Assembly (NCBI RefSeq): GCF_023169965.1
Contig: NZ_AP025592.1
Coordinates: 1,116,001-1,180,000, forward strand
Length of the DNA: 64,000 bases
Direction: 5' to 3'
Origin: Anaeromyxobacter paludicola
Lineage (GTDB): Bacteria > Myxococcota > Myxococcia > Myxococcales > Anaeromyxobacteraceae
Shown: in pieces, positions 7,459-63,913 of the stretch
Numbering within the stretch: position 1 is the stretch's first letter
Layout: the number at the start of each line of letters is the position of its first letter
Translations under genes and position numbers: made by a program
Notes under the pieces: generated by a model
Database searches by the model: none
Told to the model about the DNA's origin: nothing
Seen by the model: only the letters and a program-made list of their open reading frames with translations

Positions 7459-7462
7459 CCCC

Positions 7463-10400
7463 ATGATCAAGGCCATCATCAAGTTCTCCGCCGAGAACCG
7501 GTACCTCGTCATCGGCGCGGTGGCCGCGCTGCTCGCCATCTCCTTCTGGACGATGCGCCACATCCCGCTCGACGCCCTGCCCGACCTGTCGGACACGCAG
7601 GTGATCGTCTACTCGAAGTGGGACCGCAGCCCGGACATCGTGGAGGACCAGGTCACCTACCCCATCACCGCGGCGCTCCTCGGCGCGCCCAAGGTGAAGG
7701 CGGTGCGCGGCTTCTCCGACTTCGGCTACAGCTACGTCTACGTCATCTTCGAGGACGGCACCGACATGTACTGGGCCCGCACCCGCGTGCTCGAGTACCT
7801 CTCGAAGATCCTGCCGCAGCTGCCGAAGGGGGTCTCGACGGAGCTCGGCCCGGACGCCACCAGCGTGGGCTGGACCTTCCAGTACGCGCTCGTGGACCAC
7901 TCCGGGAAGCACTCCTCCGACGAGCTGCGCAGCTACCAGGACTGGTTCCTGCGCTACGCCATCCAGAGCGTCCCCGGCGTGTCGGAGGTCGCCACCGTCG
8001 GCGGGCAGGTGAAGCAGTACCAGGTCTCGGTGAACCCGACCCAGCTCGCCGCCTACAAGCTGCCCCTCTCCGCCGTCATCGACGCCATCCGCAAGGGCAA
8101 CAACGACGTGGGCGGCCGGCTCGTCGAGTACTCCGGCCGCGAGTACATGGTCCGCGGGCGCGGGTACGTGAAGTCGATCCAGGACATCGAGCAGATCGTC
8201 CTCAAGACCGACCGCGGGACGCCCATCACCGTGAAGGACGTGGCGAGCGTCCAGCTCGGCCCGGAGATCCGGCGCGGCATCGCCGACCTCGACGGCAAGG
8301 GCGACGTGGTGGGCGGCATCGTGGTGATGCGCCAGGGCGAGAACGCCCTCAACCTCATCGACCGGGTGAAGGCCAAGCTGGAGGAGCTGAAGCCGTCGCT
8401 GCCGCAGGGCGTCGAGGTGATCACCACCTACGACCGGTCGGAGCTCATCGGCCACGCCATCGAGACGGTGAAGGGGAAGCTCATCGAGGAGATCGTGGTG
8501 GTCTCCCTCATCATCCTGCTCTTCCTCTGGCACGTCCCCTCGGCGCTCGTGCCGATCATCACCATCCCGGTGAGCGTGGCGCTGGCGTTCATCCCCATGT
8601 ACGCCATGGGGCTCAACGCCAACCTGATGTCGCTCGCCGGCATCGCCATCTCCATCGGCGTGCTGGTGGACGGCGCCATCGTCGAGGTGGAGAACGCCTA
8701 CAACAAGATCTTCCACTGGATCCAGGGCGGGAAGAAGGGCGACTTCCACAAGGTCCGCCTCGAGGCGCTCATGGAGGTCGGGCCGGGGGTGTTCTTCTCC
8801 CTGCTCGTCATCGCCGTGGCCTTCATGCCGGTCTTCACGCTGGTGGACCAGGAGGGCCGGCTCTTCCGCCCGCTCGCCTTCTCCAAGAACCTGGCGATGG
8901 CGATCGCGGCGCTGCTCGCCATCACCCTCGACCCGGCCATGCGCATGCTCTTCGCGCGCATCGAGCCCTTCACCTTCAAGCCGCGGTTCCTCGCCTGGAG
9001 CGCCACGCAGCTGCTCGTCGGGAAGTACTACTCCGAGGAGCGGCACCCCATCAGCCGCGCGCTCCACCGCGTCTACGAGGGGCCCTGCCGGTTCGTGCTG
9101 CGCCACCCCAGGGCGACCATCGCCGCCGCCCTGCTGCTCGTCGCGAGCGCGGTCCCGGTGTTCCTGAAGCTCGGCTCGGAGTTCATGCCGCCGCTCGACG
9201 AGGGCACCCTCCTCTACATGCCCTCGGCGGTCGAGCCGGGCATGAGCGTGGCGGAGGCGCAGAAGGCGCTGCAGCTCCAGGACAAGATCCTGCGCACCTT
9301 CCCCGAGATCGAGCGGGTCTTCGGGAAGGCCGGCCGCGCCTCCACCTCCACCGACCCGGCGCCGTTCACGATGATGGAGACCACCATCGTGCTCAAGCCG
9401 GAGCGGGAGTGGCGCGAGAAGCCGCGCTGGTACTCGTCGTGGGCGCCGGAGTGGCTCAAGCGAGGGCTGCGCCCGTTCTGGCGCGACCGGATCACCGAGG
9501 ACGAGCTCAAGAACGAGATGAACGCGGCGCTCGACCTCCCTGGCATCTCCAACGCCTGGACCATGCCGATCAAGGGTCGCCTCGACATGCTCTCCACCGG
9601 CATCCGCACGCCGGTCGGCATCAAGATCTCCGGCGCCAGGCTGGAGGAGATCGAGAAGGTCGCGCTCGACGTCGAGGCGGCCATCCAGAAGGTGCCGGGC
9701 ACGCGCAGCGTCTACGCCGAGCGCGTCGCGGGCGGCTACTTCCTCGACTTCGTGCTCAAGCGCGACCGGCTCGCCCGCTACGGCCTCTCGGTGGACGACG
9801 CCAACGACATGGTCATGACCGCGGTCGGCGGCGACAACCAGAGCACCACCATCGAGGGGCGCGAGCGGTACGGGATCAACGTGCGCTACGCCCGCGACTA
9901 CCGCGAGGATCTCTCCGCCCTGCGGCGCGTCCTGCTGCCGCTGCCGAACGGCCAGGGCCAGATCCCGATGGAGGAGATCGCCGAGGTGAAGCTCGCCTCC
10001 GGGCCGTCGATGATCCGCGACGAGAACGGGCTCCTCGCCGGCTACGTCTACGTGGACTTCGACACCTCCGCCATCGACGTCGGCGGCTACGTCGCGCGCG
10101 CCAAGCATGCGGTCGCCGCGTCGGTGAAGACGCCCACGGGCTACGGCCTCACCTGGAGCGGCCAGTACGAGAACATGCTCCGCGTGAAGGAGCGGATGAA
10201 GCTCGTGCTGCCCATCACCCTGCTGCTCATCTTCGCGCTGCTGTACATGAACACGAAGTCGAGCTTCAAGGCGCTGCTGGTGATGCTGGCGGTGCCCTTC
10301 TCGGCGGTGGGGGCGGTCTGGCTCCTCTGGGCCCTCGGCTACAACGTCTCCATCGCGGTCTGGGTGGGCATGATCGCGCTCATGGGGCTCGACGCCGAGA

Positions 10401-45837: not shown

Positions 45838-46143
45838 TCAGGGCGGGGCCCTCGACGGCGCCCGGGCGCGCGCCCAGAGCGGGTAGTCGAGCCCGGCGAG
45901 CCGGTTGATGGCGATGGCCTGGAGCACCAGCAGGGCCACCGCCAGCTCGATGAGCGCGAGGTACCCCGGCCGCGTCAGCGCGCCGGCCGCGAACACGGTC
46001 GCGCCGGCGTACGGCACGAGGGCGGTGTCGAAGTCCTTCAGCCCCCGGCTGCCGACGACGATGCCGAGCACCACCAGGAAGGCGGTGAGCAGCCCCCACC
46101 CGGCGGCGTGCGCCGCGTCCGATCCTCGCCCGGTGATCTCCAT
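45838..46143 (-). CDS. small membrane protein downstream of hypE
   Basis: A 101-aa protein starting at MEITGRGSDAAH, with about three hydrophobic helices (LLTAFLVVLGIVVGS; VPYAGATVFAAGALTRP; LALIELAVALLVLQAIAINRLAGL) and a short basic tail. I do not recognise the family. It lies 98 bp beyond the hypE stop on the same strand and may be the last gene of the maturation operon, or an independent gene. Its lack of charged pockets or Cys/His argues against a cofactor-binding role. Confidence 0.55.
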   Translation of the reverse strand: MEITGRGSDAAHAAGWGLLTAFLVVLGIVVGSRGLKDFDTALVPYAGATVFAAGALTRPGYLALIELAVALLVLQAIAINRLAGLDYPLWARARAPSRAPP

Positions 46144-46241: not shown

Positions 46242-47303
46242 TCAGCAGATCCGCGGCAGCGACTCCCCGTAGGGCAGGTCGAGGATTCGCTGCCCGCCGA
46301 TGGGGGTACGGAGGGTCACGAAGCCCGGGTGCTCGGCAACCACCCGCCCGATCCGCGCCGCCTCCCGCCCCAGCGGGTGCGACCGCAAGGCGGCGAGGGC
46401 CCGCTCCGCGCCCGCCTCCGGCACGAAGGCCACGAGCTTCCCCTCGTTCGCCACCACGAACGGATCGAGCCCGAGGAGCTCGCAGGCGCCGCGCACCCCG
46501 TCGTGGACCGGCACGGCCCGCTCGTCCACCTCGACGCCCAGCCGCCGCCGGCCGGCGATCTCGCAGAGCGCCGAGGCGAGGCCGCCGCGGGTCGGGTCGC
46601 GCATGGCGTGCACGCCCGGGAAGGCCTCGAGCAGCGCCGCCACCAGCCCGTGCAGCGGCGCGGTGTCGCTCCGCACCTCGCCCCCGAAGGCGAGCCCCTC
46701 GCGCTGCGAGAGGATGGTCACGCCGTGATCGCCGACGGCCCCGGAGAGCAGGATGGCGTCCCCCGCCGCCACCCGGCGCGAGGAGAGCTCGGCGCCCGGC
46801 AGCGCGACCCCGATCCCGGCGGTGTTGACGAAGACCTTGTCTCCCTTGCCCCGGTCCACCACCTTCGTGTCCCCGGTCACCACCTGCACGCCGGCCGCCT
46901 CCGCGGCGCGCCGGATCGACGCGATCACCCGCTCCAGCTCGGAGAGGGCGAGCCCCTCCTCCAGGATGAGCGCCAGCGAGAGGAAGAGCGGCCGGGCGCC
47001 GCCCATGGCGAGGTCGTTGACGGTGCCGTTCACCGCCGGCTCGCCGATGTCGCCGCCGGGGAAGAAGAGCGGCGTGACCACGTAGGAGTCGGTGGTGAAG
47101 GCGAGCCGCGCCCCGCCGGCGTCCACCCAGGCCTGATCGTCGAGCGGCTCGAGCATGGGGTTGCGGAAGGCGGGCAGGAGGAGCTGCTCCACCAGCCGGG
47201 CGGTCAGCTTCCCCCCGCTCCCGTGCCCCATCAGGATCTCCCGGACCTCGGTGAGCGGGACCGGGCAGGCGCCGAACGGCGCGGCGGCGTCGCTAGAGGA
47301 CAT
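46242..47303 (-). CDS. hypE: hydrogenase maturation factor HypE
   Basis: A 353-aa PurM-like protein. HypE dehydrates a C-terminal thiocarbamoyl-Cys to a thiocyanate, which supplies the cyanide ligands of the [NiFe] site. The C-terminus SLPRIC ends with the carrier Cys in the conserved PRIC form. ATP-binding PurM blocks are visible: ILMGHGSGGKLTARL near the start, FTTDSYVVTPLFFPGGDIG, GTVNDLAMGGARP, VVTGDTKVVDRGKGDKVFV and MRDPTRGGLASAL. The start ATG 47303 has GGGGAGGAC just upstream and overlaps the SIS gene's end by 11 bases. Confidence 0.96.
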   Translation of the reverse strand: MSSSDAAAPFGACPVPLTEVREILMGHGSGGKLTARLVEQLLLPAFRNPMLEPLDDQAWVDAGGARLAFTTDSYVVTPLFFPGGDIGEPAVNGTVNDLAMGGARPLFLSLALILEEGLALSELERVIASIRRAAEAAGVQVVTGDTKVVDRGKGDKVFVNTAGIGVALPGAELSSRRVAAGDAILLSGAVGDHGVTILSQREGLAFGGEVRSDTAPLHGLVAALLEAFPGVHAMRDPTRGGLASALCEIAGRRRLGVEVDERAVPVHDGVRGACELLGLDPFVVANEGKLVAFVPEAGAERALAALRSHPLGREAARIGRVVAEHPGFVTLRTPIGGQRILDLPYGESLPRIC

Positions 47304-47870
47304 CGTCCTCCCCGAGGGCGAGGTGGACCTCGTCCCAGAGCAGGTGCAGGAGCAGCGTGTGCGTCTCCTGCACGCGGTGGATGGACCAGGTCCTCACCAC
47401 GAAGAGGTGGTCGCAGAGGTCCGGCATCCGCCCGCCGTCGCGCCCGGCGAAGCCGATGGTGAGGAGCCCGAGCTCGCGGGCGCGCCGCAGCGCCCGGTTG
47501 ACGTTGGACGAGGCGCCGGAGGTCGAGATCCCGAGGGCGGCGTCGCCGGGCCGCGCCTGGATGGCGAGCTGGTCCACGAAGATCTGCGAGAAGTCGGCGT
47601 CGTTGCCGATGGCGGTGAGGGCCGGGGTGGACGAGGTGAGCGCCAGCGCCGGCAAGGGTCGGCGCTTCTCCACGATGGGGTGGACGAACTCGACCGCGGC
47701 GTGCTCGGCGTCGCAGGCCGAGCCGCCGTTCCCGAAGGCGAGGAGCCGCCCGCCGGCGCGGAAGCGCCCGGCCAGCGCGCGGGCGCAGGCGGCGAGCGGC
47801 TCCGCCTGCTCCTCGAAGAAGCGGAGCTTCACCTCGGCGCTCTCGCGCGCCTTGCGCAGGATGGCGTCCC

Positions 47871-47874
<4 letters not shown>
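47293..47874 (-). CDS. SIS-domain sugar-phosphate isomerase-like protein inside the hyp operon
   Basis: A 193-aa GmhA-type SIS protein, starting at GTG 47874, overlapping the hypD stop. It has [46 protein letters not shown] and the C-terminal [20 protein letters not shown]. These contain the substrate-phosphate loop and the Glu/His pairs of sedoheptulose-7-phosphate isomerase. LPS heptose synthesis would be the usual role. But its position between hypD and hypE, with overlapping ends on both sides, links it to hydrogenase maturation or expression instead. Which reaction it performs there is unknown. Confidence 0.85.
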
Positions 47875-48997
<1,123 letters not shown>

Positions 48998-49001
<4 letters not shown>

Positions 49002-49297
49002 GGCGGCTTCCCCCCGGCGTCCGCCGGCGCCCCGCTCCGCTCCCGGTCCGCCCGGTCGGCCGTCAGCTCGGCGGTGTGCCCCATGACGTCGAGGGCCCGG
49101 TAGGCCCGCTCCGCCTCCTCCCGGTCGATGCGCGAGATGGCGAAGCCCACGTGCACCAGCACGAACTCGCCGGGGACGGCGTCGGGCAGGCACTCCAGGC
49201 AGACCTCGCGGACGATGCCGGCGAAGCGCACGTCGGCGAACCGCACCGGCCCGTCCGTCCGGACCGTCAGGATCTCGCCGGGGATGCCGAGGCACAT
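48998..49297 (-). CDS. hypC: hydrogenase maturation chaperone HypC
   Basis: A 99-aa HypC/HupF protein. The N-terminus MCLGIPGEI has the essential Cys2, which is why ATG 49297 is the start rather than upstream codons. Later, the segment [22 protein letters not shown] is typical. It carries the iron-cyanide-carbonyl unit from HypD to the large subunit. It is first gene of the leftward hypC-hypD-SIS-hypE operon, divergent from the structural genes with a 173-bp shared promoter region. The C-terminal 20 residues ([15 protein letters not shown]) exceed the common HypC length and are poorly conserved. Confidence 0.95.
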
Positions 49298-49369
49298 GGC
49301 CCTTAGAACGTGGCGGGCCGGGGCGGCGTCACAAGCTCTCTTCACGGGTCGGCGCCGGTCGGGAGGGAG

Positions 49370-49440
49370 CGCCCCGCCGCGCCGCCGCCTCGGGAGCGCA
49401 CCGCGCGCGCCCCGCCCGGTTGCGGCGCGGCGGCGGGGCG
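49370..49440. promoter_or_regulatory. long-range inverted repeat in the hyp/hydrogenase divergent region
   Basis: CGCCCCGCCGC (49370-49380) is the exact complement of GCGGCGGGGCG (49430-49440), leaving a 49-base loop, in the 173-bp gap between hypC and the small-subunit gene. It may be a structured 5' leader of the hydrogenase mRNA or a chance product of GC-rich sequence. No convincing -10/-35 or -24/-12 element was found here. Confidence 0.35.
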
Positions 49441-49470
49441 TCCACGTTCTCCACCCGGAGGGCTTCCCGC

Positions 49471-50541
49471 ATGGCCACCAAGTCGGGCGTGGACGAGGTC
49501 CACATCCTCTGGATCTCGGAGGGGATGAGCTGCGACGGGGACACCGTGTCCATCACGGCCGCCACGCAGCCCGCGATCGAGGACGTGGTCCGCGGGCTCA
49601 TCCCCGGGCTGCCCAAGGTGCACCTGCACAACAAGGTCCTCGCCTTCGAGCTCGGCGGCGAGCCGTACCTGGCCGCCTTCCGCCAGGCGGCGCGCGGCGA
49701 GCTCGGCCCCTTCGTGCTGGTGGTGGAGGGCTCGATCCCGAACGAGCAGATCAACGGCGAGGGCTACTGGACCTCCTTCGGCAACGACCTCGAGACCGGC
49801 GAGCCGATCACGATCAACGCGTGGCTCGACCAGCTCGCCCCCAAGGCCTGGGCGGTGGTGGCCATCGGCACCTGCGCCACCTACGGCGGGATCCACGCCA
49901 TGGCCGGGAACCCCACCGGCAGCATGGGGCTCGCCGACTACCTCGGCTGGAACTTCCGCTCGCGCGCCGGGATCCCGATCGTGAACGTGCCCGGGTGCCC
50001 GGTCCAGCCCGACAACTTCATGGAGACCCTGACCTGGCTCCTCTACCAGGCCGCGGGCGAGAACCCGATGATCCCGCTCGACGAGCAGCTCCGCCCCACC
50101 TGGCTCTTCGGGAAGACGGTGCACGAGGGCTGCGACCGGGCCGGCTACTACGAGCAGGCCGACTTCGGCCTCGACTACAACTCGCCCAAGTGCCAGGTGA
50201 AGATCGGCTGCTGGGGGCCGGTGGTGAACTGCAACGTGCCGAAGCGCGGCTGGATGGCCGGCGTCGGCGGCTGCCCCAACGTCGGCGGGATCTGCATCGG
50301 CTGCACCATGCCGGGGTTCCCCGACAAGTTCATGCCGTTCATGGACCAGCCGCCCGGCTCCACCGCCTCCACCGGCCTCGTGACCGCCTACGGCAAGCTC
50401 ATCCGCAGCCTGCGGGCGCTCACCAACGCCACCGTGAACGAGGAGCCGCGCTGGCACCACCGCCGGCCCGAGCTCACCACCGGGTACGAGCCGCGCTGGC
50501 CGCACCGCTCCGAGCGGTCCCCCGCGCCGGCGCACCACTAG
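49471..50541 (+). CDS. [NiFe]-hydrogenase small subunit, group 1h (actinobacterial/high-affinity type)
   Basis: A 356-aa iron-sulfur subunit without a Tat signal peptide, as in group 1h enzymes. The proximal-cluster motif reads WISEGMSCDGDTVS: Cys21 is followed three residues later by Asp24 where most hydrogenases have Cys. This matches the 3Cys-1Asp cluster known for this class. Further ligands are visible in IGTCATYGG, VPGCPVQPDN, VHEGC, SPKC, GCWG, VNCN, GGCPN and GICIGCTMPGF. The extra Cys near the medial cluster suggests three [4Fe-4S] clusters. ATG 49471 is chosen because SEGMSCDGD then lies at the usual distance. It is the first gene of the rightward operon. Confidence 0.94.
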   Translation: MATKSGVDEVHILWISEGMSCDGDTVSITAATQPAIEDVVRGLIPGLPKVHLHNKVLAFELGGEPYLAAFRQAARGELGPFVLVVEGSIPNEQINGEGYWTSFGNDLETGEPITINAWLDQLAPKAWAVVAIGTCATYGGIHAMAGNPTGSMGLADYLGWNFRSRAGIPIVNVPGCPVQPDNFMETLTWLLYQAAGENPMIPLDEQLRPTWLFGKTVHEGCDRAGYYEQADFGLDYNSPKCQVKIGCWGPVVNCNVPKRGWMAGVGGCPNVGGICIGCTMPGFPDKFMPFMDQPPGSTASTGLVTAYGKLIRSLRALTNATVNEEPRWHHRRPELTTGYEPRWPHRSERSPAPAHH

Positions 50542-50576
50542 CACCACCCGCAGCAGGCAGGAGAGGGAGGCAGGGG

Positions 50577-52367
50577 ATGCCCGGCGGAACCGAGGTACAG
50601 CCGCAGCGCAAGCTCGTCGAGATGGCCTGGGACCCGGTCACCCGGATCATCGGCAACCTCGGCATCTACACCAAGATCGACTTCGAGAACCGCGAGGTGG
50701 CCGAGTGCCGGAGCACCTCCTCGCTCTTCCGCGGCTACAGCGTGTTCATGAAGGGGAAGGACCCGCGCGACGCCGGCTTCATCACCAGCCGCATCTGCGG
50801 GATCTGCGGCGACAACCACACCACCTGCTCCGTCTACGCGCAGAACATGGCGTACGGCATCAAGATGCCGCCGCTGGCGGAGTGGATCTACAACCTCGGC
50901 GAGGCGGCCGAGTACATGTTCGACCACGCCATCTTCCAGGACAACCTGGTGTTCGTGGACTTCTGCGCGCAGATGGTGAAGGAGACCAACCCCGGCCTCC
51001 TCGAGCGCGCCGACCGCACCGACGCGCCCCACGCCGACGTCCACGGCCACCGGACCATCGGCGACATCATGCGCTCGTACGACCCCTTCACCGGGAAGAT
51101 GTACCTGGAGGCGCTCGCCATGAGCCGCCTCACCCGCGAGATGTTCTGCCTCATGGAGGGGCGCCACGTGCACCCCTCCACGCTCTACCCCGGGGGCACG
51201 GGCACGGTGGCCACGCCGCAGGTCTTCACCGACTACCTCTCGCGGCTGATGAAGTTCCTCGACTTCGTGAAGCGGCTCGTGCCGCTCAACGACGACCTGC
51301 TCGACTTCTTCTACCAGGCGCTCCCCGGCTACGAGCAGGTGGGGAACCGCCGCGTCCTGCTCGGCTGCTGGGGCTCCTTCCAGAACCCGTGGGTCTGCGA
51401 CTACCGCTACGCCAACATGACGAAGTGGGGCCGGGCCATGTACGTCACCCCGGGCATCGTGGTGGACGGCAAGCTCGTCACCACCGACCTCGTCGAGATC
51501 AACCTCGGGATCCGGATCCTCCTCGGCAGCTCGTACTACGACGACTGGGAGCAGGAGGAGACCTTCGTCCAGGAGGACCCGCTCGGCAACGCCGTGGACA
51601 AGCGCCACCCCTGGAACCAGACCACGCTGCCGAGGCCGCAGAAGCGCGACCTCGAGGGTGGCCGGTACAGCTGGGTCATGAGCCCGCGCTGGCACGACGA
51701 GCGGACCGGCGACCACCTCGCGCTCGACACCGGCGGCGGCCCCCTGGCGCGGCTCTGGGCCACGGCGCTCGCCGGCCTGGTGGACACGCCCTACGTGAAG
51801 TCCACCGGCTCGAGCGTCCGCATCTCGCTCCCGCGCACCGCCTCGTTCCCGGCGATGGACTACGAGTGGAAGATCCCGCAGTGGTCGAACACCATCGAGC
51901 GGGACCGGGCGCGCGCCTACTTCATCGCCTACGCCGGCGCGATGGCGGTGTTCTTCATCGAGGAGGCGATGAAGCTCATCCGGCAGGGGGACGTGAAGGT
52001 CTTCCAGGACTTCGAGGTGCCGGAGGACGGGATCGGCTGCGGCTTCCACGAGGCGGTCCGCGGGGTGCTCTCGCACCACCTCGTCATCCGCGACGGCAAG
52101 ATCGCCAACTACCACCCCTACCCGCCCACCCCCTGGAACGCGAGCCCGCGCGACAGCTTCGGCACCCCCGGGCCGTACGAGGACGCGGTGCAGGGGCTGC
52201 GCCTGTTCGAGGAGAACGGCCCCGCGTCGTTCAAGGGGATCGACGTCATGCGCACCGTGCGCAGCTTCGACCCCTGCCTCCCCTGCGGCGTCCACATGTA
52301 CCTGGGCCCGGGCCGGCTGCTCGAGCAGCGGCACTCGCCGATGCTGGGGCTCGGCGCCCTGAGGTGA
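50577..52367 (+). CDS. [NiFe]-hydrogenase large subunit, group 1h
   Basis: A 596-aa catalytic subunit holding the Ni-Fe site. L1 motif RICGICGDNHTTC supplies Cys74 and Cys77. L2 motif DPCLPCGVH supplies Cys567 and Cys570. A 23-residue C-terminal tail (MYLGPGRLLEQ...) follows His573 and should be removed by the protease encoded at 55147. The wording of both motifs (GDNH in L1, PCGVHMY in L2) is typical of the O2-tolerant, high-affinity group 1h enzymes that oxidise trace H2. ATG 50577 has GAGAGGGAGG upstream; the open frame that runs much further upstream is a shadow of the small-subunit gene. Confidence 0.95.
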   Translation: MPGGTEVQPQRKLVEMAWDPVTRIIGNLGIYTKIDFENREVAECRSTSSLFRGYSVFMKGKDPRDAGFITSRICGICGDNHTTCSVYAQNMAYGIKMPPLAEWIYNLGEAAEYMFDHAIFQDNLVFVDFCAQMVKETNPGLLERADRTDAPHADVHGHRTIGDIMRSYDPFTGKMYLEALAMSRLTREMFCLMEGRHVHPSTLYPGGTGTVATPQVFTDYLSRLMKFLDFVKRLVPLNDDLLDFFYQALPGYEQVGNRRVLLGCWGSFQNPWVCDYRYANMTKWGRAMYVTPGIVVDGKLVTTDLVEINLGIRILLGSSYYDDWEQEETFVQEDPLGNAVDKRHPWNQTTLPRPQKRDLEGGRYSWVMSPRWHDERTGDHLALDTGGGPLARLWATALAGLVDTPYVKSTGSSVRISLPRTASFPAMDYEWKIPQWSNTIERDRARAYFIAYAGAMAVFFIEEAMKLIRQGDVKVFQDFEVPEDGIGCGFHEAVRGVLSHHLVIRDGKIANYHPYPPTPWNASPRDSFGTPGPYEDAVQGLRLFEENGPASFKGIDVMRTVRSFDPCLPCGVHMYLGPGRLLEQRHSPMLGLGALR

Positions 52368-52370
52368 GCC

Positions 52371-52616
52371 ATGCGCAAGAAGAAGCTGCTCGGGAACCTG
52401 AAGGTGGGGCGGGCCGACGTGTCCCCCTCGGCGCCCTCCCACGTGCGCGGCGTGCGGGAGGGGAACCAGCCCGGCGCGATCGACCGGATGAGCGGGCTGC
52501 ACCCCCACCCGACCGACGCGCGCTTCGCCACCGGCACGGCGGAGCGCTCCACCGGCATCAACGCCCGCGCGCGGAACCCCATCGACCCGGCGAGCCCGAA
52601 CCTCTCGCCGTCGTAG
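52371..52616 (+). CDS. small hydrogenase-operon protein of unknown function
   Basis: An 81-aa basic, Gly/Pro/Ser-rich protein with no membrane helix, signal or Cys. Patterns such as SPSAPSHVRGVREGNQPGA and ERSTGINARARNPIDP look conserved rather than random. It starts 3 bases after the large-subunit stop, so it is surely cotranscribed. Group 1h operons commonly carry a small extra gene at this place. In mycobacterial Huc a small subunit (HucM) scaffolds the complex, and this could be a counterpart of its hydrogenase-binding part. That is inference from position, not a sequence match I can verify. Confidence 0.7.
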   Translation: MRKKKLLGNLKVGRADVSPSAPSHVRGVREGNQPGAIDRMSGLHPHPTDARFATGTAERSTGINARARNPIDPASPNLSPS

Positions 52617-52634
52617 CCCCCGGGAGCGGCGGCC

Positions 52635-53198
52635 ATGGCCTCGGCGGAGACGGCGGAGACCGCGGGGCGCGACCTCTCGCGCCACGGCGAGCGGGTGGAG
52701 CGGCTCCTCGAGGAGCTGCGCGGCCTCGCCGGCCCCTCGGCGTTCGCGCGGGTGGAGGAGCTGGTGCGCCTCCTGGTCGAGCTGTACGGCGCCGGGCTGG
52801 AGCGGCTCCTCGGCCACGCCGCCGAGGCCGGCGCGCCGGCGGCGGAGCTCGACCGCCGCCTCTCGGACGACGAGCTGGTCTCGAGCCTGCTGCTCCTGCA
52901 CGGGCTCCACCCGCTCCCGACCCGGGCGCGCGTGGAGCGAGCCGTGGCCGCCGCCGGCGCGCGGCTCGGCGGCGGCGCGCGGCTCGAGCTCCTCGGGCTC
53001 TCGGACGACGGGCGGGTCCGGCTCCGGCTCGGCGCCGCGCCGGGCGGCTGCCCCTCCACGCGCGCCCGGCTCCTGCAGGCCGTCCGCGAGGCGATCCAGG
53101 AGGCCGCGCCCGAGGTCTCGCAGGTGGACGTCGAGGACGCGGCCGCCGCCGAGCCGGCGCGGCTCGTCACGCTCGGCGGGCCGCGCGGGCGGAGGTGA
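52635..53198 (+). CDS. NifU-like domain protein with degenerate cysteine motif
   Basis: A 187-aa protein. The N-terminal half is helical and Leu/Glu-rich. The C-terminal NifU-type domain (about residues 110-170) reads RLRLGAAPGGCPSTRARLLQAVREAI. The classical C-x-x-C is reduced to a single Cys: the first Cys position is Pro and CPSS is kept only as CPST. It therefore probably cannot hold a NifU-style cluster alone. NifU-like proteins are standard members of group 1h hydrogenase operons, presumably helping Fe-S insertion into the small subunit. It is preceded by the 81-aa gene (18 bp) and followed by the DUF5947-like gene. Confidence 0.78.
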   Translation: MASAETAETAGRDLSRHGERVERLLEELRGLAGPSAFARVEELVRLLVELYGAGLERLLGHAAEAGAPAAELDRRLSDDELVSSLLLLHGLHPLPTRARVERAVAAAGARLGGGARLELLGLSDDGRVRLRLGAAPGGCPSTRARLLQAVREAIQEAAPEVSQVDVEDAAAAEPARLVTLGGPRGRR

Positions 53199-53201
53199 CC
53201 G

Positions 53202-53855
53202 TTGCTCCCCCTGCGCGCCCTCGAGCGGTTCGCCCGCCCCGCCGCCCGGCCAAGGCCCGCCGCCGGGGAGGCCTGCGAGCTCTGCGCGGCCCCGGTCGGC
53301 GAGGCCCACCCGCACGTGGTCGATCTGGAGCGGCGCGCCCTGTGCTGCGCTTGCCCCACCTGCTCCCGGCTCTTCGTGCAGCCGGGCGCCGGCGCCCGGT
53401 TCCGGACCGTGCCCGACCGCGTCCGCTCCGATCCCGGGCTGGCGCTCACCGACGCCGACCTGGCCGCGCTCGGCGTCCCGGTGCGGCTCGTCTTCTTCGC
53501 GCGCGGCGGCCGCGACGGCCGCTGGTTCGCCACCTTCCCCGGATCGGCCGGCGCCGTCGAGGGGGCGCTCGACCCGGCGGCCTGGGCGGCGCTCGCGACG
53601 AGGACCCCGCTCGTGGCCGCGGCCGAGCCGGACGTCGAGGCGCTCCTCGCCTGGGGGGAGCGCGGCGAGCCCGGGATCGCGCTCCTGCTCGTGCCGGTCT
53701 CGGCCTGCTACGCGCTCGCCGGCCTCGTCCGGCGGCGCTGGCGCGGGCTCGACGGCGGACCCGAGGTCTGGCGCGAGGTGGCCGACGCGCTCGCGGCGCT
53801 GCGCGCCCGGGCCCGCCCGCTCCGCCCCTCGGAGCGGAAGGAGCCGCGCCCATGA
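53202..53855 (+). CDS. DUF5947-like cysteine-rich hydrogenase-associated protein
   Basis: A 217-aa protein starting at TTG 53202 after a good GGAGGTG. Near residues 20-55 it has CELCAAPVGEAHPHVVD and RALCCACPTCSRLFV, six Cys that could bind iron or zinc. The remainder is an alpha/beta domain with DGRWFATFPG and AYALAGLVRRRWRG. This pattern fits DUF5947, a family found in actinobacterial-type hydrogenase operons; that family name is from memory. A rubredoxin-like or cluster-carrier role in maturation or electron transfer is possible. The stop overlaps the next gene's ATG by 4 bases. Confidence 0.65.
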   Translation: MLPLRALERFARPAARPRPAAGEACELCAAPVGEAHPHVVDLERRALCCACPTCSRLFVQPGAGARFRTVPDRVRSDPGLALTDADLAALGVPVRLVFFARGGRDGRWFATFPGSAGAVEGALDPAAWAALATRTPLVAAAEPDVEALLAWGERGEPGIALLLVPVSACYALAGLVRRRWRGLDGGPEVWREVADALAALRARARPLRPSERKEPRP

Positions 53856-55150
53856 GCTTCGAGTCGCTCCGCGCCGTCGCCGACGCCGTCCTCCTGGAGG
53901 GCTACGTCCTCTACCCCTACCGCGCCTCGGCGCCCAAGAACCGCTACCGCTGGACCTTCGGCGTGCTCGCGCCGCGCGCGTGGAGCGAGGCGGGCGGCTG
54001 CGAGGCCTGGTGGATGGAGGCGCAGGTGCTCGTCGAGCCGGGACGGGAGGCCCCGGCGCTCGACGGCCGGCTCCGCTTCCTGCAGCTGCGGCGGCGCGGG
54101 GTGGAGGCGGCACGCGACGGCGGGCTCGCGCCAGTGGACCGGCTCGAGCTGCCGGGACGGCTCCTCGTCCCCTTCGAGGAGGGGGACCTGCGCGAGGTGG
54201 CGCTCGGCGTCGCGCTCGTCCCCGGCGCCGGGCTTGAGGTCCCCTTCGCGCTCGAGGGCGACCGCCGCGAGGAGGCGCTCCGGGGCGAGGACGGCGCGCT
54301 CGCCGGCCGGGTCGTGCAGGAGCGGTGGCCGGTGCAGGGGCGCGTCCTCCTCTCCTGCGAGCGGGTCCCGGCCGAGCGGCCGCTGCTCCGGGTCCGGATC
54401 CGGGTGGAGAACCTCACCGCCTGGGAGGAGCCCCGTGCGCCGCGGGAGCGCGCCATGCGGGCCTCCTGCCTCTCGGCGCACCTCCTCCTCGCCGTCGAGG
54501 GCGGCGCGCTGGTCTCGCTCCTCGACCCGCCCCCCTGGGCCCGGGCCGCCGCGGCGGCCTGCCGCAGCACGCGGCTCTGGCCGGTGCTGGCCGGCGAGCC
54601 CGGGCGGCGCGACCTCGCGCTGGCGGCGCCCATCATCCTCTACGACCACCCCCAGGTCGCGCCCGAGAGCGGTGGCGACTTCTTCGACGCCACCGAGATC
54701 GACGAGCTGCTCGCCCTGCGCACCGCCACCCTCACCGAGGACGAGAAGCGGCAGGTCCGCGCCACCGACCCGCGTGCCGCCGAGGTGCTGGCGAGGGTGG
54801 AGGGGCTCCCGCCGGAGCTGATGCGCCGGCTGCACGGCGCCGCGCGCGGGCTGGCCGGGGCGGAGATGGTCCCGCGCGCGCCGCCCGCCGGGGACGGGGC
54901 GCCCGGGCTCACCCCCGGCCGCCGGGTCCGCCTCAAGGCGCCCGGGGACCGGCGCACCGACGCGCAGGACCTGCTCTACGCCGGGCGCACGGCGACGGTG
55001 GAGAAGGTGGTGCACGACCTCTCCGGCGAGCCGCTCCTCGCGGTCACCATCGACGGCGACCCGGCCGCCGAGCTGCACCGCTGGAAGGGGCGCTTCCACT
55101 ACTACCGGCTCGACGAGGTGGACCTCCTGCCGGCGGAGGACCGGCCGTGA
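53852..55150 (+). CDS. conserved hydrogenase-operon protein of unknown function
   Basis: A 432-aa soluble protein opening with LLEGYVLYPYRASAPKNRYRWTFGVL, a segment I recall from group 1h hydrogenase operons. It is mostly beta-rich, with LRVRIRVENLTAWEE, and blocks such as ILYDHPQVAPESGGDFFDATEIDELL. The last about 70 residues (GRRVRLKAPGDRRTDAQDLLYAGRTATVEKVVHDLSGE...LHRWKGRFHYYRLDEVDLL) resemble an SH3-like barrel. No signal, helix span or Cys cluster is evident. Starts and stops overlap both neighbours by 4 bases, showing strict co-expression. Probably a maturation or assembly factor, but no function can be stated. Confidence 0.7.
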   Translation: MSFESLRAVADAVLLEGYVLYPYRASAPKNRYRWTFGVLAPRAWSEAGGCEAWWMEAQVLVEPGREAPALDGRLRFLQLRRRGVEAARDGGLAPVDRLELPGRLLVPFEEGDLREVALGVALVPGAGLEVPFALEGDRREEALRGEDGALAGRVVQERWPVQGRVLLSCERVPAERPLLRVRIRVENLTAWEEPRAPRERAMRASCLSAHLLLAVEGGALVSLLDPPPWARAAAAACRSTRLWPVLAGEPGRRDLALAAPIILYDHPQVAPESGGDFFDATEIDELLALRTATLTEDEKRQVRATDPRAAEVLARVEGLPPELMRRLHGAARGLAGAEMVPRAPPAGDGAPGLTPGRRVRLKAPGDRRTDAQDLLYAGRTATVEKVVHDLSGEPLLAVTIDGDPAAELHRWKGRFHYYRLDEVDLLPAEDRP

Positions 55151-55638
55151 CGCCGCGGGTGCTGGTGGCCGGGGTCGGCAACGTCTTCTTCGGGGACGAC
55201 GGCTTCGGGCCGGAGCTGGCGCGCCGGCTCGCCGCCCGGCCGCTGCCGCCGGGAGTGCGCGCCGCCGACTTCGGCATCCGCGGGCTCCACCTCGCCTACG
55301 AGCTGCTCGAGCCGCTCGACCTGCTGGTGGTGGCCGACGCCGTACGGCGCGGCGGCCCGCCCGGCGAGCTCTACCTCCTCGCCCCGGAGCTGGAAGAGCT
55401 CCCGGGGGCCGCCGACGGCCACGCCATGGCCCTGCCCGCCGTCTTCGCCGCGCTCCGGGCCATGGGGGGCACGCCGCCGCGGCTGCTCCTCGTCGGCTGC
55501 GAGCCGTCCGCGTGCGAGGGGCTCGGGCTGAGCGAGCCGGTGGCCGGCGCGCTCGACGCGGCGGCCGAGCTGGTGCTGGAGCTGGCGGCGAGGGCGGGCG
55601 AGCCCGCGCCGGAACCTGTGCGGGAGGCCGGGCCATGA
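55147..55638 (+). CDS. [NiFe]-hydrogenase C-terminal maturation protease (HupD/HyaD family)
   Basis: A 163-aa peptidase, starting at GTG 55147 on top of the previous stop. VAGVGNVFFGDDGFGPELARRL is the family's first block, with the Asp that contacts nickel. The middle Asp is in LLVVADAVRRGG, and the His is in ADGHAMALPAVFAALR. VGCEPSACEGLGLSEPV completes the pattern. It should trim the 23-residue tail of the large subunit after nickel insertion. It overlaps the next gene by 4 bases. Confidence 0.93.
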   Translation: MTPRVLVAGVGNVFFGDDGFGPELARRLAARPLPPGVRAADFGIRGLHLAYELLEPLDLLVVADAVRRGGPPGELYLLAPELEELPGAADGHAMALPAVFAALRAMGGTPPRLLLVGCEPSACEGLGLSEPVAGALDAAAELVLELAARAGEPAPEPVREAGP

Positions 55639-57401: not shown

Positions 57402-59057
57402 CTATTTCCCGAGCGTCTGGGGCGTGGGCGGCTGGGGAGCCACCGCCGCATTGGGCGGCGCCACCTGCCGCGTGGAGCTCGTCTCCTGCAGGTACCAGGC
57501 GTGCTCCGGGCGGCGCAGGATGCCGTCGATGACGCCGTTCACCGCGTCGGCCTGCGCCCTCTTCCCGTGCTCGGCCGCCGCCCGGGCGAGCTCGCGCGCC
57601 TCGGGGACGAGCGCGTGGTAGAAGCGCTCCGCCACCTCGAACATGCCGTGCCAGTGGGCGTAGTCGGGCGCGTTCATCGAGACGCCGTGCCGCGCCCGGC
57701 GTCCCTCGTGGTGCCACAGGTAGAACCAGTCCCACTCGATCTTCTCGTCGAACTCCTTCGGCGTGATGAGCCCCTGCTTCTTGAGCTCGTCCATGATCGC
57801 CTTGCCCGGCCTGGCGAACTTCTCGTTGTAGAGCCGCTCGAAGTCGTCGTACTGGACGTAGAAGTCGTTCACGTAGCTCTGCGCGTGACAGACGTTGCAG
57901 GCCTGCTTCATGCGGTCGCGCTTCTGCTCCGCGGTGTCCACCACCGCCGCCTTGCGCTTCGCCGGGTCGGTCTCCGTGACCACCTTGTGCTGCGCGTCGG
58001 TGTCCATCCGCTGCGAGATGGGCGGCCGGTTGGTCCAGCTGATCCGCTCGCCCGGATCGTGGGTCACCTTCCCGCCGTTCACGTTGGCCGACATGTGGCA
58101 CGAGGCGCAGGTGGGCGCGGCGGTGTAGTCCTTGCCGAGCACCCAGCTCTTCGCGCCGAGCGCCATCTCGTCCTTCCGGTCGCGGTAGGCGATGCCGTGC
58201 TTCGACTCCTCGAAGATCTCCTTCTGCGGGTGGTCGGGCCCGAGGTGGCACTTGCCGCAGTTCTCCGGCTGCCGCGCCCGGCGCGGCGAGAAGTCGTGGC
58301 GGGCGTGGCAGGCGGTGCAGCTGCCGAGCGAGCCGTCGAGGTTCATGCGGCCGATGCCGGTGTTGGGCCAGGTGGCGGCGACGAAGAGCGGCCGGCCGTC
58401 GGCGTCCCGCGCCACCCGGGCGAGCGCCTCGGGGCGGGTCGGCTTCCCGTCCGGCCCGGGCGCGAGGTCGTCCACGGTGATCCGCCCGCCGTCCTTGGAC
58501 TGGAGCGCCACCTTGGTGCCGTGGCAGTTCTGGCAGCCCGACTCGGCGCTCGCCATCCCGTTCACGCTCTCGAGGGCCGGGGCGCCGGCCGGCGCGTGCG
58601 GGTTGAAGCGCTCGCGCGCCCCCTCCACCGTCTCGGCCATGAAGTTGTCGAGCGAGGCGAGGATGTTCCCCGCCTTGGCGTGGTGGCTCGCCTCGAACTC
58701 CCTGTCCTCGCGCTGGTGGCAGCGGGCGCAGTCGCGGGGCGTGACCACGGTCGCGACGAGCGCGCCGTTGTGCTCGAAGGCATCGGCGTCGCCCCGCTCG
58801 GCGCGGTGGCACTCGAGGCAGCCCACGCCCTTCCGCGCGTGCCCGCTCTCCCGCCACTGCTGCACGATGCCGGGGTTGGTCGAGGCGTGGCAGTCGAGGC
58901 AGGCCTGCGACCCCTTCGAGACGACGACCCCCGCGGCCTTGGGGGCCTTGGGGGTCTTCCTGGCTCCGCCCTCGCCCGCCGCCAGGGAGGCGGCCGGGGC
59001 GAGGACGGCGAGGGCGACGGCGACGGACGCTGCTCGGAGCGCGGAAGCGGGCCTCAC
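57402..59057 (-). CDS. octaheme c-type cytochrome of the hydroxylamine oxidoreductase family
   Basis: A 551-aa secreted cytochrome with eight CxxCH sites: CLDCH, CLECH, CARCH, CQNCH, CTACH, CGKCH, CASCH and CNVCH. The blocks HARHDFSPRRARQPENCGKC, HLGPDHPQKEIFEESKHG and HHEGRRARHGVSMNAPDYAH are signatures of the HAO family. Family members either oxidise hydroxylamine or reduce nitrite, NO or hydroxylamine. Whether the Tyr that crosslinks the catalytic P460 heme is present needs alignment. It starts at GTG 59057 after GGAGGTCAC and has a signal peptide to about residue 27. It lies 37 bp after the NO reductase stop, so they form one operon. Confidence 0.93.
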   Translation of the reverse strand: MRPASALRAASVAVALAVLAPAASLAAGEGGARKTPKAPKAAGVVVSKGSQACLDCHASTNPGIVQQWRESGHARKGVGCLECHRAERGDADAFEHNGALVATVVTPRDCARCHQREDREFEASHHAKAGNILASLDNFMAETVEGARERFNPHAPAGAPALESVNGMASAESGCQNCHGTKVALQSKDGGRITVDDLAPGPDGKPTRPEALARVARDADGRPLFVAATWPNTGIGRMNLDGSLGSCTACHARHDFSPRRARQPENCGKCHLGPDHPQKEIFEESKHGIAYRDRKDEMALGAKSWVLGKDYTAAPTCASCHMSANVNGGKVTHDPGERISWTNRPPISQRMDTDAQHKVVTETDPAKRKAAVVDTAEQKRDRMKQACNVCHAQSYVNDFYVQYDDFERLYNEKFARPGKAIMDELKKQGLITPKEFDEKIEWDWFYLWHHEGRRARHGVSMNAPDYAHWHGMFEVAERFYHALVPEARELARAAAEHGKRAQADAVNGVIDGILRRPEHAWYLQETSSTRQVAPPNAAVAPQPPTPQTLGK

Positions 59058-59094
59058 GTGACCTCCAGCCCGCCTCCGCGCTCCCGCGCCCCGC

Positions 59095-61383
59095 TCAGGC
59101 GGCGCGCTTCAGGGAGCCGTTGCGGGTGCTGGAATCGTCGCGCTCCTTCCGCCGCAGCGCCAAGTCCCCAAAGATGGCCTTCGCGACGAAGGCGACCAGG
59201 GCGAGCGCGCCCGCGTCGAACACCACGTCGGGGAAGACGCGCAGCCAGGTGGCGGTGTGGATGAAGGACGAGCCGGTCACCTCCGGGCTGCGCGCGTACC
59301 AGATGCCGTGCTTGATGGCGATGGCGAACTGGTAGAAGCCGGCCGGGAGGAGCGAGAGGACGATCATCCCGGCGAGGCCGAGGTTGAGCGCCCAGAAGGC
59401 GAACCCGAGCAGGCGATCGTCCCAGGCGGCCTTGCGGACGGTGTGGCGCATCGAGAAGAGCATGAGCGCGATGGCGAGGAAGCCGTACACGCCGAACAGC
59501 GCGCCGTGCGAGTGGATGGGCGTCGTGTTGAGCCCCTGCGCGTAGTAGAGGACGATCGGCGGGTTGATGAGGAACCCGAAGACGCCGGCCCCGATCATGT
59601 TCCAGAAGGCCACCGCCGTGAAGAAGTAGAGCGGCCAGCGGTAGGGCGACTGGTTGCCCGCGAGCTTCGCGACCTTGAGGTTCTGGTAGACCTCGAAGCC
59701 GAGCAGCGTGAGCGGCACCACCTCGAGCGCCGAGAAGGTCGCGCCGAGCGCCGTGATCATGAGCGGCGAGCCGGTGAAGTAGAGGTGGTGGAAGGTGCCG
59801 ATGATGCCGGAGCCGAGGTAGAGCAGGATGCTGAAGTAGGTGGCCTTGAGGGCGCTCGAGGACTTCACCGCGCCGATCTGGGTGAGCACGAAGGCGAGCG
59901 CGACGGTCGCGAACACCTCGAAGAAGTTCTCCACCCAGAGGTGCACCACCCACCAGCGCCAGTAGTCGGCCATCGCGATGTGGGTGCCCGGCGTGTAGAA
60001 GAGCCCCACCGAGTAGAAGAGCGGGATGGAGACCGAGGCGTAGAGGAGGAGGTGGGTGAGGCCGCCCTTGTCCTGCTCCTTCTGCAGGGCCGGCTTGATG
60101 GCGCGGTAGACGAGGACGAGCCAGAGCAGCATGCCGGCGATGAGCGCCACCTGCCAGACGCGGCCGAGCTCGATGTACTCGTAGCCCTGGTGGCCGATGA
60201 GCCAGCCGTTCTCGCCGGAGAGCTTGCCCTGGATGCCGGCCCAGGTGCCGACCAGCGAGCCGACGACGACCACCACCAGCGCGCCGAGGAGGGTCAGCAC
60301 GAGCGCCTTCTGGGCCTTCGGCTCCACGCCGCCCACCGCCGGGCCGATGAAGAGGCCGGTGGCGAGCCAGCAGGTGGCGATCCAGAACACCGCGAGCTGC
60401 AGGTGCCAGGTGCGGCTGGCCGCGTACGGCAGGATGCCGCCGAGGTCCATGCCGAAGAACTTGTTGCCCTCGACCGCGTAGTGACCGGTGAGCGAGCCGA
60501 GCGCGGCCTGGAGCACGAAGAGCACGAGGGCGATGAGGAAGAAGGGCAGCGTGGCGCGCTGGCTCGGGGTCGGGTTCGGCTCGGCGAGCGGCGCGAGCTC
60601 GGGCCGGTGCTCGTCCTCGCCGTTGCGCATGTAGAAGTAGATGGCGAGGCCGGTGCCGGCGATGAGCAGGAGCACGCTGGCGATGGACCAGATCAGGGCC
60701 GACGGGAGCGGGCCGTTGCCGGCGAGCGGGTCGAAGGGCCAGTTGGCGGTGTAGGTGAAGGTCTCGCCGGGGCGGTCGGTCATCCCGCTCCAGGCGGTCC
60801 AGAAGTAGAACGCGGTCACCTGGCGGGCGCGCTCGGGCGAGTCCACGAACCCGGGCGGGATCGACATCGCGTCCGAGCCCTTCTGGAAGAGCTGGTCGTA
60901 GTAGGCGACCAGGGTCGGGAAGGCGGTGGCCTGGCCGCGCGAGAGGGTGAGCGTGTCGGTCGCCGCGTCGTAGCGGTTCCGGTGCAGCTCGTCCTTCACG
61001 AGGGCCTGCACGCGCCCCCGCTCGCCGGCGTCGAGCGCCTCGAGGTCGGCCTGCGTGAAGGCGCGCGCCGCGCCGGCGTCGAGCCCGTGCGCCAGGCCGG
61101 CGGTCACGAGCGCGGTGCGGTGGAGGCTGTCCGCCGTCCAGTCGGGCGCGAGGTACGCGCCGTGGCCCAGGATGGAGCCCACGTGCTGCCCGCCGCGCGA
61201 CAGATAGTACTTCTGGCCGGCGACGACGTCCTCGGCGGTGAAGATCACCTGGCCTTGGGCGTCCACCACGCGGCCCGGGATGGGCGGCTTGTAGCGGCTG
61301 ATCTGGGCTCCGCCGAAGATGAGCACGCTGAAGGCGGCCACGACGACGAAGAGGAGTACGGCTCGGGTGCGGTGACTGGGCAT
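59095..61383 (-). CDS. norZ: quinol-dependent nitric oxide reductase (qNOR)
   Basis: A 762-aa heme-copper-oxidase relative that reduces NO to N2O using quinol. The N-terminal about 220 residues form the NorC-like periplasmic domain without CxxCH (GRVVDAQGQVIFTAEDVVAGQ), which distinguishes qNOR from cNOR. The catalytic subunit has about 12 further helices with heme and iron ligands in ASRTWHLQLAVFWIATCW, WWVVHLWVENFFEVF, IGTFHHLYFTG and IHSHGALFGVYGF. ATG 61383 is the natural start after GAGAGGAAGCACC. Upstream, a hemerythrin gene ends 146 bp away. Confidence 0.96.
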   Translation of the reverse strand: MPSHRTRAVLLFVVVAAFSVLIFGGAQISRYKPPIPGRVVDAQGQVIFTAEDVVAGQKYYLSRGGQHVGSILGHGAYLAPDWTADSLHRTALVTAGLAHGLDAGAARAFTQADLEALDAGERGRVQALVKDELHRNRYDAATDTLTLSRGQATAFPTLVAYYDQLFQKGSDAMSIPPGFVDSPERARQVTAFYFWTAWSGMTDRPGETFTYTANWPFDPLAGNGPLPSALIWSIASVLLLIAGTGLAIYFYMRNGEDEHRPELAPLAEPNPTPSQRATLPFFLIALVLFVLQAALGSLTGHYAVEGNKFFGMDLGGILPYAASRTWHLQLAVFWIATCWLATGLFIGPAVGGVEPKAQKALVLTLLGALVVVVVGSLVGTWAGIQGKLSGENGWLIGHQGYEYIELGRVWQVALIAGMLLWLVLVYRAIKPALQKEQDKGGLTHLLLYASVSIPLFYSVGLFYTPGTHIAMADYWRWWVVHLWVENFFEVFATVALAFVLTQIGAVKSSSALKATYFSILLYLGSGIIGTFHHLYFTGSPLMITALGATFSALEVVPLTLLGFEVYQNLKVAKLAGNQSPYRWPLYFFTAVAFWNMIGAGVFGFLINPPIVLYYAQGLNTTPIHSHGALFGVYGFLAIALMLFSMRHTVRKAAWDDRLLGFAFWALNLGLAGMIVLSLLPAGFYQFAIAIKHGIWYARSPEVTGSSFIHTATWLRVFPDVVFDAGALALVAFVAKAIFGDLALRRKERDDSSTRNGSLKRAA

Positions 61384-61529
61384 GGTGCTTCCTCTCGAGA
61401 CGGCTGCGGTGAGGCGACGGTGAGGCGGGCTGGGGACGGATCCCTCCCGTCGGGGCGCCACCTCGCCGTCGGAGGAGCGAGGCAGCGCCGCGTGGGAGGG
61501 AGGAGGGAGGGGGTGGGCGGGACGGCGGG

Positions 61530-62156
61530 CTAGCAGCAGCCGCCGGACACGGGGAACCGGGGACCGGCGCCAGCGCCGCAGGCGGCGCGGGCCGGGGCGT
61601 GGCGGGCCACGAGCGCCTCGGCGCTCTTCGCGAGCTCGGCGGGGCGGCCGGAGGCGCCCTTCTCGACCTCGTAGCGCTCGCAGGCGGCGGAGACGGCGTC
61701 CAGGGCGGCCGGGGCGAGCCGCTGCTCGGCCATGGGGTAGAGGATGGCGTCCTCCTTGTGGATGTGGTTGTGCAGGAGCTGGGCGTACCCGCCGGCGGCC
61801 TCGACGAGGCGGGCCCGGTCGAGGTCCGTCCAGGGGGCCTGCTGCTCGACGAGCCCCTTCAGGACGGCGATCTGGCGGCGCCCCTCGTCGTGCTCCATCA
61901 GCATCACGGCGATGGGGCCGGCGTGGCGCGGGAAGCCGGCCTCGACCATCGCGGCGAAGAGGATGTCCTCCTCCTTGCCGTGGTGATGGGCGTCGGCGAA
62001 CTCGCGGACGAACGCGACGAAGCGGCCGAGCTCGGCCCGGTCCTCGGCGGTCCCCACGGCCTGGCGCCGGCGGAGCTCGTCGGCGTAGGCGGCGAGGGCG
62101 TCGATCGCGCTCTCGATGAGTCGGTGCTCCTGCATCAGGGTCTCGATGGCGTCCAT
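61530..62156 (-). CDS. hemerythrin-domain protein with cysteine-ended tail, first gene of NO operon
   Basis: A 208-aa HHE protein. Di-iron ligands are visible: His in MQEHRLIES, the block ADAHHHGKEEDILF, His in MEHDEGRRQI, and LLHNHIHKEDAILYP. The C-terminal tail, about 50 residues beyond the domain, ends SGGCC with another Cys (RAACGAGAG) and may bind a metal or a disulfide. ATG 62156 lies only about 14 bases from the -12 element of the sigma54 promoter. So either the message is nearly leaderless or translation begins at Met8 (62135). A role in NO sensing, binding or cluster repair fits the neighbours. Confidence 0.92.
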   Translation of the reverse strand: MDAIETLMQEHRLIESAIDALAAYADELRRRQAVGTAEDRAELGRFVAFVREFADAHHHGKEEDILFAAMVEAGFPRHAGPIAVMLMEHDEGRRQIAVLKGLVEQQAPWTDLDRARLVEAAGGYAQLLHNHIHKEDAILYPMAEQRLAPAALDAVSAACERYEVEKGASGRPAELAKSAEALVARHAPARAACGAGAGPRFPVSGGCC

Positions 62157-62169
62157 GCCCTTGCCCTAG

Positions 62170-62185
62170 AGCAACTCGCTTGCCA
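62170..62185 (-). promoter_or_regulatory. sigma54 -24/-12 promoter for the hemerythrin-NO reductase operon
   Basis: Read leftward: TGGCAAG-CGAG-TTGCT, with exact GG-N10-GC spacing and only one departure (AAG for ACG) from the TGGCACG-N4-TTGCW consensus. It points at the hemerythrin/NO reductase operon and is divergent from a sigma54 activator, the standard enhancer-binding arrangement. Transcription would start near 62158-62160. Confidence 0.8.
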
Positions 62186-62238
62186 AGCAGCCAACCTCCC
62201 GGAATTCCAGTCGTTGACCTGCGTGCGCGCGATCGCCC

Positions 62239-62296
62239 CACCGCCTTTTCGGTGGAAGGCGCACCGACATTCGGGTGCGACACCGAAATTCCGGTG
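62239..62296. promoter_or_regulatory. three 16-bp palindromes, likely activator binding sites
   Basis: CACCG-N6-CGGTG occurs at 62239-62254 and 62281-62296, and CACCG-N6-GGGTG at 62262-62277. Spacings start to start are 23 and 19 bp, near two helical turns. They lie 54-127 bp upstream of the sigma54 promoter, the normal place for an enhancer. Three sites is the number NorR uses in E. coli, but the sequence differs from the E. coli GT-N7-AC core. Confidence 0.75.
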
Positions 62297-62310
62297 CGGA
62301 TCGCGATGTT

Positions 62311-62339
62311 TTGACAAGGCCACCCGCATTTCGTTAGTC
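62311..62339 (+). promoter_or_regulatory. weak sigma70-like promoter for the norR-like gene
   Basis: TTGACA at 62311-62316, then a 17-bp spacer and TTAGTC at 62334-62339. The -35 is perfect, the -10 poor. The start would fall just before the ATG at 62348. It sits immediately beside the palindromes, so the activator could repress its own gene. Confidence 0.4.
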
Positions 62340-62347
62340 CCGATCCG

Positions 62348-63913
<1,566 letters not shown>

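Follow-up and report, generated by a model that had tools for sequence, protein, structure and literature searches.

A predicted reductive octaheme cytochrome in the sigma-54 regulon of a quinol-dependent nitric oxide reductase in Anaeromyxobacter paludicola

A published ancestral reconstruction places His in the reductive HAOs and Tyr in the oxidative HAOs at the key site (PMC12758564). The Kuenenia stuttgartiensis HAOr (Kustc0457/0458, PDB 6h5l), which is devoid of the P460 cross-link, converts nitrite to NO, and the HAO-like octaheme protein Kuste4574 of Kuenenia is part of the Rieske/cytochrome b complex R/b-3 encoded by kuste4569-4574 (PMC12485887). In Phycisphaerae without nir, a putative octaheme HAO-like protein, 'Onr', has been proposed to replace NirK/NirS, from its presence only (PMC11266412). 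Anaeromyxobacter dehalogenans reduces N2O and has no nirS/nirK; hence it is not a canonical denitrifier (PMC10653820). The NO reductase of the E. coli NorR-norVW system, a flavorubredoxin, is controlled by a divergent GAF-AAA+-HTH activator and a sigma-54 promoter. The locus compared here with these systems lies in a stretch of 64,000 nucleotides (the window; bases 1116001-1180000) of the 4.59 Mb single-contig genome of Anaeromyxobacter paludicola.

The minus strand of the window carries a gene run that opens with HHE1, a hemerythrin-domain protein (62156-61530; PF01814, 9e-22), followed by qNOR (norZ), a quinol-dependent nitric oxide reductase of 762 aa (61383-59095, with ATG at 61383), and by OCC, a secreted octaheme cytochrome c of the HAO superfamily (551 aa; 59057-57402, with a GTG start). 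A second hemerythrin-domain protein, HHE2 (57302-56811, minus strand; PF01814, 9e-16), lies downstream of OCC and precedes a methionine aminopeptidase (56795-55806). REG, a sigma-54 activator of GAF-AAA+-HTH architecture (62348-63913, plus strand; Sigma54_activat 5e-69, GAF 2e-10), is divergent from the run. Genes, coordinates and strands all agree with the original prediction of a leftward hemerythrin-qNOR-octaheme run and a divergent activator. HHE1 is YtfE/DnrN-like, with scores below the YtfE/DnrN cut-offs, and HHE2 is PA2171-like, with 115.8 bits against a cut-off of 190. The intergenic gaps measure 146 nt (HHE1-qNOR), 37 nt (qNOR-OCC) and 99 nt (OCC-HHE2). A search on the same strand inside the run gave no match to a sigma-70-like promoter or a T-tailed terminator, and a single transcript presumably extends through OCC. 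A strong hairpin at 59040-59080 (minus strand) holds the Shine-Dalgarno sequence and GTG start of OCC in its loop; it is missing in the related genomes G024 and G022 and was dropped as evidence.

OCC begins with a hydrophobic, signal-like stretch and contains eight CxxCH motifs (residues 53, 80, 110, 175, 247, 267, 317 and 387). It matches Pfam Multi-haem_cyto at 3e-21 and, in profile comparisons with the PDB, 4qo5 from Ignicoccus hospitalis (4e-50), Kuenenia HAOr 6h5l (6e-27) and HAO 1fgj (3e-21). The top matches of a fold search all belong to the HAO family, 4qo5 being again the best. The AlphaFold model is globally poor (pLDDT 68, TM 0.3), including near the active site; it was rejected for locating heme 4 and used for family assignment only. 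The archaeal 4qo5 protein shares with OCC the insertion PN-x-G-[IV]-GR-x-N-x-DGSLG, but has DV instead of DH, so that the active-site His is missing. OCC resembles Kuenenia HAOr in its octaheme HAO fold family, in the absence of the P460 Tyr and in the active-site DH after heme motif 6. It differs in that sequence identity is low, no Kustc0457-type partner is found beside the window OCC, and HAOr is not encoded with an NO reductase as far as PMC12485887 says.

Active-site residues were mapped on the N. europaea HAO (NeHAO) sequence, which is identical to PDB 4fas over 491 residues. The active-site pair D267/H268 of NeHAO corresponds to D275/H276 of OCC; this pair is invariant in 80/80 relatives and, together with the pocket motifs, across 36 aligned sequences. 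Alignment to HAO, which the original prediction had proposed as a check for the P460 cross-link tyrosine, gave a negative answer: Tyr467 of NeHAO (in NPGGWTYTEGW) is replaced by His468 in OCC (NAPDYAHWHGM), invariant in 80 relatives, and the motif PDY[AT]HWHG is present in 80/80. This position was assigned with HMMER through a paralog from the same genome, in which Tyr467 becomes Leu (NPDYALWYGW); the paralog was aligned by the same route to Kuenenia HAOr (QQDVSWWWGQ). Alternative gap placements put Tyr467 on Trp469 or, with MAFFT alone, on Gly, and never on Tyr; the MAFFT placement is off by a few columns and was discarded, the HMMER route having resolved the position. A conserved Tyr466 lies two residues from His468, and Tyr334 of NeHAO is Arg344 in OCC. 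OCC therefore has the eight hemes and the Asp/His pair of oxidative, P460-type HAO but not its cross-link Tyr, and combines superfamily sequence, eight hemes and absence of that Tyr, as in reductive cross-link-less octaheme HAOs. Since the tyrosine is absent, and in view of the reconstructed His/Tyr division (PMC12758564) and the activity of HAOr (PMC12485887), OCC should be a reductase. Most likely it is one, and by comparison with HAOr and from the gene context its substrate is probably nitrite.

The qNOR protein combines a NorB cytochrome c-like domain (PF22085, 5e-56) with COX1 (4e-54) and aligns from end to end with solved qNORs (E about 1e-200). It has no CxxCH, as expected of a fused NorB whose cytochrome c-like N-terminal domain lacks this motif. 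The predicted reduction of NO to N2O is thus borne out at the level of homology by a bona fide qNOR. Full-length homology extends to the enzymes of Alcaligenes xylosoxidans, Neisseria and Geobacillus (E about 1e-187 to 1e-201), whereas the operon partners OCC and hemerythrins set the window qNOR apart.

The description of the activator as NorR-like holds for its domain architecture and not for its identity. REG has the GAF-AAA+-HTH order of NorR, is divergent from an NO reductase gene and shows 34% identity to E. coli NorR (L177). However, the NorR iron-site residues R75, R81, D96, H111, C113 and D131 are replaced and D99 is semi-conserved (E/D), and REG was rejected as a canonical NorR on these seven positions. 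It scores 327.7 bits against the NorR equivalog cut-off of 476, and also falls below the NifA and FhlA cut-offs. REG may not be an NO sensor. Further differences from NorR-norVW are the enhancer half-sites, CACC-N8-GGTG in the window, and the presence of qNOR in place of flavorubredoxin.

The REG-HHE1 gap contains three exact CACC-N8-GGTG sequences, predicted to be upstream activator sites (UAS; 62239-62254, 62262-62277 and 62281-62296), and one -24/-12 element, TGGCAAGCGAGTTGCT (62170-62185, minus strand), predicted to be the sigma-54 promoter of the HHE1-qNOR-OCC run. This element is conserved in relatives and is the only such sigma-54 match on the minus strand of the window. A -24/-12 element with repeated upstream sites is the arrangement of sigma-54 enhancer-dependent operons. 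The element ends 13 nt before the HHE1 ATG, compared with 48-79 nt in those relatives where the distance was measured, and the mRNA of the window run is therefore predicted to be almost leaderless. Thirteen qNOR promoters of the family contain 8 exact CACC-N8-GGTG sites versus 0.08 in dinucleotide shuffles, and 29 sites versus 2.4 when up to one mismatch is allowed.

The definition of sites and promoter came from qNOR loci; only then were the sequences preceding unlinked OCC genes inspected. The qNOR-type arrangement is found upstream of the unlinked OCC in G013, G014 and G019, with two one-mismatch sites at about -168 and -147 and a sigma-54 element at -79; these three g2 genomes, being closely related, amount to roughly one event. 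In G016 the UAS/sigma-54 arrangement precedes an HHE1-like remnant, followed by OCC. Over 24 genomes, the joint UAS and sigma-54 pattern gave 41 matches versus 1 for the reversed control, with HHE1-qNOR, OCC, qNOR-OCC, NapA, YwiC-like and DUF438-hemerythrin genes downstream. The shared promoter type is evidence that OCC may belong with NO reduction at the regulon level, independently of adjacency, and the proposed co-expression of OCC and qNOR gains support from it even where the two genes are unlinked. YwiC-like membrane protein genes with a UAS and sigma-54 promoter occur in four genomes (L157, L158, L162 and L164) and are candidates for addition to the nitrogen-oxide regulon. In G029, a UAS and sigma-54 site stands before genes for a DUF2249-like protein and a 220-aa secreted protein (L065, 10721-11852), which are convergent with OCC. 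Two matches in the window genome itself (1667004 and 3916714) have atypical site centres and may be due to chance.

Within the family, genera g1, g2 and g3 keep the order REG/HHE1/qNOR, which is rearranged in g6. In g1-g3 it is mostly followed by HHE2 and methionine aminopeptidase, and HHE2 stands directly after qNOR in genera without OCC at the locus. In g1, OCC is inserted behind qNOR in the window and in G024, the contig of the latter breaking off upstream of qNOR. The G022 genome (g3) has qNOR-OCC after a nosZ-nosD-nosF cluster. Adjacency of qNOR and OCC thus occurs in two genera, and the OCCs adjoining qNOR form one clade in a FastTree tree (support 0.91). The conserved synteny indicates that the gene run is not due to chance. 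In g2, OCC is unlinked to qNOR and about 0.4 Mb away (OCC at 2.41 Mb and qNOR at 2.83 Mb in G013; 2.02 and 1.61 Mb in G014). Several genomes have qNOR without OCC; among them G023 (92% complete) has qNOR and no close OCC. Conversely, OCC is present in G029 (95% complete) with no qNOR match. An obligate pair was accordingly rejected, each gene occurring without the other, and the notion of a 'closed' OCC-qNOR unit is weakened by G029.

Beyond the run, the window encodes a [NiFe] hydrogenase with maturation genes (46242-55638; small subunit 49471-50541, large subunit 50577-52367), a poor match to named NCBIfam hydrogenases, which we take to resemble the group 1h/5 high-affinity type. In G024, of the same genus, a NasC-like molybdopterin oxidoreductase/ferredoxin/Rieske-like cluster occupies this position. 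A 102-aa remnant (45838-46143) corresponds to a 354-aa membrane protein found in G024.

OCC has relatives of 60-89% identity in Planctomycetota, Acidobacteriota, Gemmatimonadota and other phyla. At loci outside Myxococcota with enough upstream flank, genes for cytochrome b (60/71) and Rieske (59/71) lie just upstream of OCC, and NapA lies just downstream in 22 of the 68 loci with enough downstream flank; the NapA tested scores above the NCBIfam equivalog cut-off. The order Rieske-cytochrome b-octaheme(-NapA) is widespread in Planctomycetota, Acidobacteriota and Gemmatimonadota (L077-L156). Rrf2-type regulators (13), globins (8), hemerythrins (5) and Hcp (3) also occur near OCC in other phyla. 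Judged from these neighbours, the context of OCC there is nitrate/nitrite reduction and NO management. Kuste4574 is likewise encoded with Rieske/cytochrome b, a likeness in context to those 60 of 71 relatives; the window OCC, unlike Kuste4574, sits with qNOR and outside such a context. The Rieske/cytochrome b partner is absent beside OCC in Myxococcota, and a search of the window genome, run without a positive control, found none.

Members of the Anaeromyxobacter family are classed as nir-less ammonifiers. In the window genome and its genus, neither NirK nor NirS was found above cut-off, and no NosZ was found. The window genome has one NrfA, clustered with NrfH, a NapA-like protein and another octaheme cytochrome: locus L073 (G000:C1:1707000-1726000) encodes, at 3860-10136, NrfH, NrfA, NapA-like and NapD-like proteins and then an octaheme HAO-like protein of 418 aa. 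A third octaheme HAO-like protein, of 440 aa with nine CxxCH, is encoded at 8337-9659 of L074, and a second qNOR at 3.96 Mb of the window genome.

On balance, it seems probable that the run is a nitrogen-oxide stress or respiration operon, activated by REG, in which OCC works reductively and qNOR removes NO. REG would switch the run on through the three CACC-N8-GGTG sites and the -24/-12 promoter. OCC would reduce its substrate, most likely nitrite from NapA, to NO and/or ammonium in the periplasm, and the membrane-bound qNOR would use quinol electrons to convert NO from OCC, NrfA or iron chemistry to N2O. As the search of the window genome turned up no nitrous-oxide reductase (NosZ), the qNOR branch is predicted to end at N2O, which would leave the cell. 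A probable role of the hemerythrins is to bind or buffer NO/O2 or to repair iron centres. For the substrate and product of OCC, and for the signal of REG, this scheme gives what we infer.

A more specific proposal, which can be advanced tentatively, is that OCC is an NO-forming nitrite reductase replacing NirS/NirK, so that NapA, OCC and qNOR would form a chain within one sigma-54/UAS regulon of the Anaeromyxobacter family; in relatives such as G022, NosZ would be added to this NirS/NirK-independent denitrification chain. Several points count against the reductive scheme as a whole: 4qo5, the nearest solved relative, has Val where OCC has the active-site His, HAOr works slowly in vitro, NrfA, present in the window genome, already gives ammonium and some NO, OCC and qNOR each occur without the other, and the search for a Rieske/cytochrome b partner in the window genome found none. 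The main rival is a purely detoxifying reductase. OCC would then be a second, periplasmic sink converting NO or hydroxylamine to ammonium in parallel to qNOR, nitrite not being its main substrate. The stress-type regulon common to OCC, qNOR and hemerythrins suits such a sink, as does the occurrence of NO-related genes (Rrf2-type regulators, globins, hemerythrins, Hcp) around OCC in other phyla. The commonest partners, Rieske/cytochrome b and NapA, suit respiratory nitrite reduction better, and the sink is considered rather unlikely.

The original prediction held that OCC oxidises hydroxylamine to NO, which qNOR would then reduce to N2O in a closed detoxification route. Superfamily membership, the conserved D275/H276 pair and co-regulation with qNOR are all compatible with this, but the cross-link Tyr has given way to an invariant His and Tyr334 to Arg, the nearest relatives lack the cross-link, those HAOs without the cross-link that have been examined act as reductases (PMC12485887, PMC12758564), and the partners in other phyla are NapA and Rieske/cytochrome b. 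Oxidation of hydroxylamine by OCC is thus unsupported, and the route as a whole is highly improbable. A role as an electron-transfer cytochrome merely feeding other periplasmic reductases would fit the eight hemes and the lack of a membrane quinol partner encoded at the locus, and a wire-like function is conceivable for some HAO-like proteins. A pure wire would have no need of an invariant D275/H276 pair and pocket motifs, and qNOR draws its electrons from quinol with no cytochrome required; this role is very unlikely.

Each part of the proposed reductive operon is of a known kind, and an octaheme stand-in for NirK/NirS has already been raised for Phycisphaerae (PMC11266412). Unlike that 'Onr', OCC is linked to an NO reductase by evidence from operon and promoter. 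Among the open-licence papers searched, none was found to report this octaheme protein as sharing a regulon and an operon with qNOR in the Anaeromyxobacter family. HAO-like gene calls in such genomes should not be taken as a sign that hydroxylamine is oxidised or that nitrification takes place. The presence of OCC in an NO-reductase regulon, in genomes without detectable NirS/NirK, makes it a candidate source of biological NO and N2O, and cultured strains exist among such bacteria. If the proposal is true, OCC could form NO that ends as the greenhouse gas N2O in this soil-type bacterium.
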